Assembly: GCA_944323995.1 (NCBI GenBank)
Contig: CALUUN010000001.1
Coordinates: 124,001-188,000 of the forward strand
Reading direction: 5' to 3'
Origin: Candidatus Gastranaerophilales bacterium
GTDB lineage: Bacteria; Cyanobacteriota; Vampirovibrionia; Gastranaerophilales; Gastranaerophilaceae
Length of the DNA: 64,000 nucleotides
Part shown: positions 24,427-49,241 of the stretch, piece after piece
Position numbering within the stretch: the stretch's first letter is position 1
Layout: each line of letters opens with the position of its first letter
Program-made: the position numbers and the translations under genes
Notes under the pieces: model-generated
Told to the model about the DNA's origin: nothing
Databases searched by the model: none
Seen by the model: the letters and a program-made list of their open reading frames with translations, nothing else

Positions 24427-25718
24427 TCAGAATATTTTTATGGGTTCTTTTATTTTCATCCGACAGTCATTTACAACTTCTTTGCATATATCGTCCTGAA
24501 CTGTTGTACCGCAGTATTTGACTGATTTTATATAACCTGTTTTGCAGGCGGCTGTTTTGTAGCCGCTATCTGTCAAAAGAAGTTTTATCTCTCGTCTGCT
24601 GCCCGTGAACACATCATACATGACGTTTACCTTTAACTGTTCACCCGATGGTGCGAAAGTTTCCGCCGGCAGTATTTTCCCTGATTTTAAAAGATAATAA
24701 GGAACCACATCATCATTCAGTTTTCCTTTGCCGGAATTTCCGTCGGTATCTATATAGATTAAAAAGCCCGAGCGGTCGTCTTCTTGTTCAGCATCCGATA
24801 ATATCTCAATATCCTCATAATCTGAGCCGATATATAATTTCAAGCCGTTTGCAAGTTCTATATGAGGCGTCAAATTCTTAAAATTACCGCCCGGTACTGC
24901 TGCTTGAACGGTTGCGACAGGCACACTGCAATCGCTTTTGTATTTATTAAAAGTCTGTTCCAATTTTTGGCAGAATAATGTCGTGTAATCTATTTCCTCA
25001 GGGGCGCCATCATCTATGCACACCGCCTGAGTGGTGGCGTAGACACGACCAAATTTGTACCAGACCGTGTAAGAGCCGCCGAATTCGCGGTGATATGCAT
25101 CGTTCTTGTCGTATTCCATACTCGACCACAGCCCAAACGCGGGACTGGGTGAGTTGATAAATCCCATCGATATTGCCATGTCGTTATCTCTTAGGCCATC
25201 AACTGATACTCCGTAGCTTGTACTTATGGTTGTGCCGGGGTACAAAACTCTTGCCAATTGGTCTAACTGTTGCTGACTAGGTAAAGTGCCCCCCATATCA
25301 TGGCATGCTTTTACTGCACCTGCCCAGTAGTCACTACCGTAGTAACATTCACTTATTCCGAGTTCTCCTTTTTGTGCTTCACAATCAGATAAACTCATTG
25401 CTGTTGGATAAAACGGAGCAGTGAAACATGTTCCGTCACTTAATTCAATTGCACAATCTGCCTCTTCATCTTCTTCTTCATCCTTAAAAAACCCCGGAAT
25501 AACATTTGCGGAAATATTCCGCATAAATTCATACCCCATATATTGTGATGCATAATCGACTTTTTTAAATTTCTTTATTGTAACCGGCAAAGTCACAACC
25601 ACGATAACCGCAATGATAACAAGGGCTGCGACCAGCTCAGCGACCGTAAACCCTTGCCTGGAGAGGGTTGTATAACGCCCCCCCCCGAGAAACCTGTAAT
25701 ACTCTCTATTCCAGCCAT
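24427..25718 (-). CDS. Prepilin A: phase-variable prepilin with C-type-lectin-like domain (OFF by frameshift)
   Basis: The ATG at 25718 has AAGGAGG 4 nt upstream and a strong promoter, but reading from it passes a G9 tract (25678-25686) and enters the wrong frame; G10 would join it to the pilin frame. The pilin part has QG|FTVAELVAALVIIAVIVVV (Gly/Phe cleavage site, Glu +5). Between Cys codons at about 25453 and 25020 lies a lectin-like domain (CAIELSDGTCFTAPFYPT, KACHDMGGTLPSQQQLDQL, LWSSMEY, AVCI) closely related to that of prepilin C. A further C-terminal domain contains IYIDTDGNSGKGKLNDD, as seen in other minor pilins. An alternative longer frame from 25770 bypasses the shift but lacks an SD and starts within the promoter. 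Likely a surface adhesin. Confidence 0.75.
25678..25686 (-). repeat. G9 homopolymer tract in prepilin A
   Basis: Nine consecutive C on the plus strand (G on the coding strand), 33 nt after the ATG and upstream of the prepilin motif. A candidate contingency tract: G10 or G7 restores the frame. Confidence 0.85.
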
Positions 25719-25741
25719 TCAGCCTCCTTCGTAACATGTTT

Positions 25742-25770
25742 ATTATATCAAATTTTGCAAAGTTATGCAA
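25742..25770 (-). promoter_or_regulatory. Promoter of prepilin A
   Basis: TTGCAT (25765-25770), 17-nt spacer, TATAAT (25742-25747) on the minus strand. It overlaps the divergent tatD promoter, so the two probably compete for RNA polymerase. Confidence 0.8.
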
Positions 25771-48018: not shown

Positions 48019-48066
48019 ATATGCCTGAAAACTCCCTCCCACCCTTGAGGAGCAAAGCGAACCAAC

Positions 48067-48105
48067 AGCAATAGCCTCTCCCCTTATGGGAGAGGCTATT
48101 GCTGC
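48067..48105. repeat. 17-bp stem inverted repeat 3' of prepilin C
   Basis: Arms CAGCAATAGCCTCTCCC and GGGAGAGGCTATTGCTG around a 5-nt loop, 18 nt beyond the prepilin C stop. No T-run follows on the minus strand, so it is a poor rho-independent terminator. DGR target genes carry a hairpin just 3' of the variable region that aids retrohoming, and position and size fit that. Confidence 0.7.
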
Positions 48106-48123: not shown

Positions 48124-49241
48124 CTATTCCGCCAAGCACACCGCCGGACTGTCGCTGTAGTAGCGGATGCTGGTCATCCGGAACGTGCACATGATGCCGA
48201 AGTGGCGGATGTACGCGATGTCCTTGCTGCGCTCCTCACTCGACCACAGCCAAAAGTCGAAGCTGGGAGAGGTGATGAACTTCCATTCAATTGCCAGGTC
48301 GTTGTCTCTGCTGCCCCAGCTTGTTGTATCATCAGTGTAGATTGTTTTACCGGGGTACAAATCTCTTGCTAATTGGTCTAACTGTTCCTGACTCGGTAAA
48401 CTTGAACCCATATCTTTACATGCTTTTACTGCGCCACCCCAGAAATCATCATATCCATCTCTACAATCTGTTATGCCAAGTTCTGATTGTCTTTCTATGC
48501 ATTCTGCATGGCTTAATGCTGTTGGATAGAAAGGTGCAGTAAAACATGTTCCGTCACTTAATTCTATTGCACAGTTGCTGCCTTCTAATGCAATATTTCC
48601 TATATCTCTTAAGTCATCACCTCTATTATTCGGATTCTTAAATCCGTCTACGTCATATAATATGGCTAAACAATCATTTACACCTATGCTTTCTTTTCCT
48701 ATTGTTATTTTGTTATTGTTATATGGGTCTTGAGTACAGGACGGATTATATGCTATTACTCCGTTTACACCGTTTGCAAACTGTACTGCTACCGTATTTG
48801 TATCCCAGTCGTTTTGTCCGAAGTTTTTAGCTTTTTTAACTTTAGACATGTCAACTTCTTCATCACCCCAGGTTACGGTATCAGCAAAGCATGTTGTTAT
48901 ATCATCGTTATCACATATTCTTGTTATCTTAATATGTTTAGATAATTCATCAACAAACGCTTCGGTTGTTGTATAACCTGCCAAGGTTCCTTGAACATTC
49001 ATAACTTTTAATGCTTCACCGAGTTTTCTCTGGAATACTTGTGATGCAGTGTTCCATGCTCTTTCCTGATAGTTCTGAATTAATGTCGGGATAGTCAGTG
49101 CCGCAACTATACCGATTATTGCCAAGGTAATTAAAACCTCCGCAAGCGTAAAACCTTTACTCCTAAATACCCCGAAACCCGCACGGTGAGAGCTTAAAGA
49201 AGTACCCCCCCCCATTTAGGCTGAAATCCACTATTCATCAT
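48124..49241 (-). CDS. Prepilin C: phase-variable prepilin with C-type-lectin-like, DGR-type variable domain (OFF by frameshift)
   Basis: ATG 49241 follows AAAGGGG by 8 nt and a consensus promoter. Reading from it enters G9 (49205-49213) and meets a stop soon after; G10 would connect it to KG|FTLAEVLITLAIIGIVAAL. An ATG at 49215 abutting the tract is in the pilin frame at G9 but has no SD. The pilin domain covers the first 200 or so codons. Then a lectin-like domain (CAIELSDGTCFTAPFYPTA, GGAVKACKDMGSSLPSQEQ, FWLWSSEE, AYIRHF, SPAVCL) runs to the stop. Its last 50 codons are GC-rich and mostly end in C or G, unlike the rest of the gene, as in DGR variable regions. Likely a diversifiable surface adhesin. 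Confidence 0.78.
48127..48290 (-). other. Candidate DGR variable region in prepilin C
   Basis: Coding strand from near TTC-ATC-ACC to the stop. Nearly all codons end in C or G, and over half are XXC (CGC, AGC, GAC, ATC, TAC, CAC, TTC, GGC, TGC), as expected when AAC template codons are randomised at A. The conserved scaffold WLWSSEE and PAVCL flanks it. The tail shares GGCGGTGTGC with prepilin A, a possible IMH-like element. Confidence 0.6.
49205..49213 (-). repeat. G9 homopolymer tract in prepilin C
   Basis: Nine C on the plus strand, between the SD-preceded ATG and the prepilin motif. G10 or G7 restores the frame. Confidence 0.85.

Follow-up and report, generated by a model that had tools for sequence, protein, structure and literature searches.

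A prepilin gene with a lectin-like end as a candidate remote target of a DGR in a gut Gastranaerophilales genome

In the DGR of the Bordetella phage BPP-1 (brt, avd, TR, mtd), a reverse transcriptase (RT) and Avd act in the adenine-biased transfer of sequence from a template repeat (TR) to a variable repeat (VR), the target has a C-terminal lectin fold, and a hairpin lies 3' of the VR (PMC3240598). This hairpin is needed for efficient homing, and in phage examples it is found 4-34 bp from the VR (PMC3240598). In DGRs of Cyanobacteria, a related phylum, CLec targets lie remote from the retroelement and carry the VR at their 3' end, and cruciforms were proposed to activate these remote targets (PMC7517822). 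Several cellular targets, diversified in trans, have been described in Thiohalocapsa PB-PSB1 (PMC10907252), and DGR targets with DUF1566 have been linked to putative pilins and to CLec, according to the account that PMC6642488 gives with citation of an earlier survey.

We analyzed a 64,000-nt stretch (the window) of a Candidatus Gastranaerophilales genome, together with relevant stretches from the rest of that genome, which has 35 contigs, a size of 1.75 Mb and a completeness of 99.9%. From sequence comparisons, the window gene at 48124-49215 appears to be one of at least 31 dispersed gene ends that two DGRs rewrite at chosen adenines.

The window prepilin and its lectin-like end

The gene and its parts are as follows.
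48124-49215, minus strand: predicted type IV prepilin gene, 363 aa, putative remote DGR target of the template repeat TR1 (open reading frame, PF07963, TIGR02532, TR1 match)
49096-49164, minus strand: prepilin class III signal or N-methylation motif K-GFTLAEVLITLAIIGIVAALTIP, residues 18-40 (Pfam PF07963)
48127-48579, minus strand: predicted C-terminal C-type-lectin-like domain, 151 aa (AlphaFold model and Foldseek)
48132-48255, minus strand: variable repeat, equivalent to TR1 positions 7-130 (adenine-biased match to TR1)

Profile searches support the prepilin assignment (PF07963 N_methyl, E=5e-7; TIGR02532 over its cut-off), and the class III signal includes GFTLAE and a hydrophobic N-terminus. 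The first-pass annotation had proposed that this prepilin ends in a DGR-type variable lectin domain, a proposal now supported by both a domain model and an adenine-biased match to TR1. A full-length model (pTM 0.49) was of low quality except in the lectin domain and gave only weak Foldseek matches, so the 151-aa domain was modeled alone (AlphaFold pLDDT 96.7, pTM 0.90). Its best match was the C-type lectin of Bd2740 (8oks; prob 0.99, TMt 0.67), followed by intimin, formylglycine-generating enzyme, CD72 and Link modules; E-values were weak throughout, the best being 0.087. The matched folds are members or relatives of the C-type-lectin fold, and the model supports such a fold for 48127-48579. 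Sequence and profile searches with the domain gave no Pfam, PHROG or PDB match. The gene has its VR, of about 41 codons, at the 3' end of a sequence with a C-type-lectin-like fold, as judged from fold matches with weak E-values.

The description of a GC-rich gene end dominated by XXC codons on an AT-richer gene is borne out by counts per block. Codons 326-364 have a GC3 of 0.86-0.96 and a GC content of 0.59-0.62, versus 0.16-0.44 and 0.32-0.52 over codons 1-300, and XXC codons account for 43-64% of the two final blocks versus 8-24% of blocks before codon 300. A template had been anticipated for 48127-48290; TR1, located on a different contig (C19), matches 48132-48255, inside that stretch. Most differences between the VR and TR1 fall at template adenines, as had been predicted, with 21/43 of these changed but only 5/81 of the other positions (Fisher p=7e-8). 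The C-terminal end of the open reading frame is FWLWSSEERSKDIAYIRHFGIMCTFRMTSIRYYSDSPAVCLAE, and the corresponding reading of TR1 is FWLWSSEEYSKNNAYNRNFNSTNTNRNNNNRNNSNNQAVCLG. Among VRs, the TR1 3' block GGCGGTGTGCTT is almost without change and is a candidate for a G/C-rich, IMH-type 3' border.

The window holds a second gene of this kind.
24427-25770, minus strand: second prepilin (TIGR02532 just over cut-off), with the same lectin domain in an internal rather than C-terminal position; probable eroded former target
25008-25140, minus strand: degenerate VR of the second prepilin, without a hairpin on its 3' side

This paralogous domain had been said to match in the scaffold and to differ at the same positions. 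The scaffold match stands, but the differences are not restricted to template adenines: relative to TR1, 24/46 adenines and 19/88 other sites are changed. Because it differs also at non-adenine sites, the gene looks like an eroded former target. We rejected it as a current target on the basis of the 19/88 changes, the internal position of the VR and the lack of a 3' hairpin.

Two retroelement cassettes and their repeats

A reverse transcriptase, which the first-pass annotation had suggested looking for, was found twice (RVT_1; RT1 at C19:23446-24120 and RT2 at C8:56686-57366), each time with an Avd-family gene and a template repeat next to it. The motifs IGNLTSQ and YVDD were read from both translations, and RT1 matches the PDB entry 8ub7, 'Reverse transcriptase' (3e-37), which we take to be the BPP-1 enzyme. 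Both Avd proteins exceed the PF22296 bAvd cut-off but not the stricter one of NF033474. The best-supported identity of Avd1 comes from PHROG, where it matches 'Avd protein of DGR' (3e-27); a sequence search of the PDB gave no match for it. On contig C19, a prepilin with a VR, Avd1, TR1 (L002:923-1059), RT1 and a further prepilin follow one another on a single strand; on C8, TR2 and Avd2 lie on the strand opposite to RT2.

Adenine-tolerant alignment of TR1 and TR2 to about 58 prepilin loci identified at least 31 clean VRs (21 for TR1 and 10 for TR2). These are dispersed in the genome, lie nearly all in prepilins, and are each distinct from all others. For TR1, 391/907 adenines were changed versus 89/1751 other sites (p=5e-125), and for TR2, 178/380 versus 39/1030 (p=1e-78). 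The two target sets are separate, as the other template scores far lower for each clean VR. Two eroded TR1-like VRs were found besides the 31, the one at 25008-25140 in the window and one at C4:76994. Some VR loci are truncated by a contig end, and the VR of one target (C11:7316) contains a stop codon, so not all 31 targets are shown as intact genes. The count is nonetheless likely a lower bound, since the contig ends C7, C23, C30 and C8 carry the 3' flank of TR2-type targets.

The frequency of change depends on the context of the adenine. In both template sets, change affects 54-65% of the adenines that sit in AA runs and only 7-10% of isolated ones, the latter barely above non-adenine sites; either selection or sequence-context-dependent mutagenesis may account for this. 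Compared with TR1, VRs at three loci (L056, L070, L055) contain insertions that preserve the reading frame (6, 9 and 12 nt), possibly due to slippage in AAC repeats.

The RT sequence search revealed relatives in other Candidatus Gastranaerophilales MAGs. One (G016, the genome of locus L120) has its own template and about 21 VRs (421/920 adenines and 64/1779 other sites changed), and a second (G012) also has its own template (243/492 and 88/804). In a third (G013), no TR1- or TR2-like template was found beside the RT. A lectin-type domain occurs in 10/10 genus members searched; those that lack an RT have 1-7 copies, so the domain is not dependent on the retroelement.

Hairpins, leaders and the pilus context

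The best explanation, and one that we consider very probable on sequence grounds, is a dispersed DGR system that acts in trans on prepilins. Together with Avd, the RT would copy TR1 RNA from contig C19 and introduce errors at adenines; the mutated cDNA would replace the 3' end of the 48124-49215 gene, probably aided by a stem-loop just downstream of the VR. The same cassette would serve at least 20 further dispersed targets, and the second cassette, on C8, at least 10. With at least 31 targets under two cassettes, the cell would hold a large repertoire of prepilins with differing binding faces. Current DGR activity, in-trans homing as the cause of the pattern and a function of the hairpins are what we infer from these comparisons.

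The position of this stem-loop is as follows.
48066-48104, minus strand: perfect hairpin with a 17-bp stem and 5-nt loop, 27 nt 3' of the window VR; candidate DGR target-site hairpin

Its core, CCTCTCCC-N5-GGGAGAGG, is present in 30 copies genome-wide (0 for a reversed control), and this is the only copy in the window. By coordinate comparison, 26 of the 30 are situated 3' of a VR at a distance of up to about 300 bases; the remaining four are at contig ends bearing the 3' flank of TR2 targets. More generally, a stem of at least 8 bp occurs within 160 nt 3' of 23/33 VR genes versus 6/47 other window genes. The spacing between hairpin and VR ranges from 14 to about 170 nt, wider than the 4-34 bp of phage DGRs. 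Many hairpins are paired and inverted, 138-139 bp apart, and form a REP/MITE-like element of about 160 bp that occurs in both orientations (examples 3' of VR genes are C2:46529-46688 and C11:1189-1347). Given the variable spacing and the inverted pairs, the hairpins could instead be a mobile REP/MITE-like element, or a terminator co-duplicated with the genes, that has no role in homing. We give this reading a substantial probability, somewhat short of even. Against it, G016 has hairpins of other sequence directly 3' of many VRs, and some abut the VR, a position that resembles that of the required BPP-1 hairpin (PMC3240598).

The leader of the window gene contains a poly-G tract.
49205-49213, minus strand: G9 tract in the leader, immediately 3' of an ATG; candidate for phase variation

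G/C runs of at least 7 occur only three times in the window (at 25678, 43723 and 49205), each time as a poly-G in a prepilin leader, and poly-G tracts are present in 22/59 prepilin loci. The length of the tract sets the upstream start codon that is read in frame. This suggests phase variation as an extra on/off layer, with homopolymer assembly error as another possible source. Repeat-derived sequence is also translated within some prepilin leaders, giving leaders with as many as about 90 residues ahead of FTLAE (e.g., L002:2955-3230). A scheme in which surface variation has two layers, poly-G on/off switching and the rewriting in trans of at least 31 hairpin-marked lectin ends by two DGRs, giving a gut Gastranaerophilales cell an unusually large repertoire of variable pilins, is tentative, with a probability somewhat short of even.

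The targets may be displayed on pili, where a role of the lectin ends in adhesion or recognition is plausible. Alternatively, they could be DGR-diversified yet function off pili, as pseudopilins or as sensors in another pathway. Export and pilus assembly are steps that we infer here, which leaves room for such a role, and DGR targets of Cyanobacteria and Thiohalocapsa have been proposed to be regulators or sensors (PMC7517822, PMC10907252). We consider it unlikely, although worth keeping in view, given the class III prepilin signal on the 48124-49215 protein and the presence in the genome of PilB/PilT-type ATPase-family proteins (four T2SSE-family matches over cut-off).

Probable overwriting by the templates

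If diversification in trans of prepilin ends is the correct reading, it could nevertheless be a thing of the past, with VRs diversified long ago and a retroelement that is now a relic. About 5% of non-adenine sites are changed in TR1 VRs, including five in the window VR; this is more than expected from one recent copying event, so some TR1 VRs have drifted or derive from an older template. The eroded VRs (25008-25140 and C4:76994), the stop codon inside the VR at C11:7316 and the presence of an RT in only 5/16 genus members fit the same view. We nevertheless judge it improbable, because both RTs and both Avd genes are full-length open frames, 9/10 TR2 VRs have only 1-6 non-adenine changes in 103, and non-adenine sites of VRs are better conserved than the adjoining scaffold, as expected under continued overwriting. 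In the 300-base stretch that precedes the VR, TR1 paralogues differ by 34% on average (closest pair 12%) and TR2 paralogues by 27% (closest pair 14%). Within VRs, mean pairwise divergence is 54% (TR1) and 51% (TR2) at adenine sites versus 12% and 6% at non-adenine sites, where it can be 0. In one pair of loci (L073 and L076), the scaffold differs by 14%, VR adenine sites by 58% and VR non-adenine sites by 0%. A VR frame that is better conserved than the rest of the gene, yet holds more variable adenines, is consistent with a single template having been copied repeatedly, and the low non-adenine divergence is as expected if templates overwrite the VRs in trans. Part of this conservation could also stem from selection on the lectin frame.

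Ordinary divergence of a multigene family by diversifying selection or gene conversion, without a retroelement, might be considered given the large prepilin family, but we rejected it as scarcely credible, since 43-47% of template adenines but 4-5% of other sites are changed (p<1e-77), and the genome contains RT, Avd and TR.

Comparison with known systems

Remote DGR targets, genomes with many targets and targets linked to pilins are each already known (PMC7517822, PMC10907252, PMC6642488). The closest solved fold, Bd2740 (8OKS), is likewise a C-type lectin that ends a surface fiber of Bdellovibrio; it is not a pilin, and the part of PMC10769870 that concerns this fiber tip does not describe it as a DGR target. 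DUF1566 targets differ in that a genome-wide dispersed repertoire is not part of the description drawn from PMC6642488, and the window domain has no Pfam match; the same source also mentions larger repeat counts, but its main example, as presented there, has few adenine changes. A literature search, with several key DGR surveys outside its scope, found no DGRs in Gastranaerophilales or Melainabacteria. As described in PMC8144416, the largest survey of cellular DGRs was a contig-based search in which remote targets were undetectable, so dispersed systems such as this one would be missed.

The genome differs from described systems mainly in the number and kind of targets. BPP-1 has one cis target in a phage, whereas here two cassettes are present and at least 31 targets are dispersed over the chromosome. 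Most cyanobacterial targets are predicted to be regulatory proteins of the cytosol, with 121 diversified genes spread over many genomes (PMC7517822), whereas here the targets are prepilins and at least 31 VRs occur in a single genome. Among the cellular systems with adenine-biased repeats in the literature examined, Thiohalocapsa PB-PSB1 is the largest, with nine loci, 15 targets, which are putative conflict-system sensors, and 21 VRs (PMC10907252); we claim no record. The mechanism is a known one, of which this genome seems to have an unusually large, pilin-focused version, in which remote targets far outnumber cis targets, and the set is also found in related gut species. It offers a natural system in which to ask how a single template gets to so many targets, whether these are marked by hairpins, and what gut Gastranaerophilales attach to.
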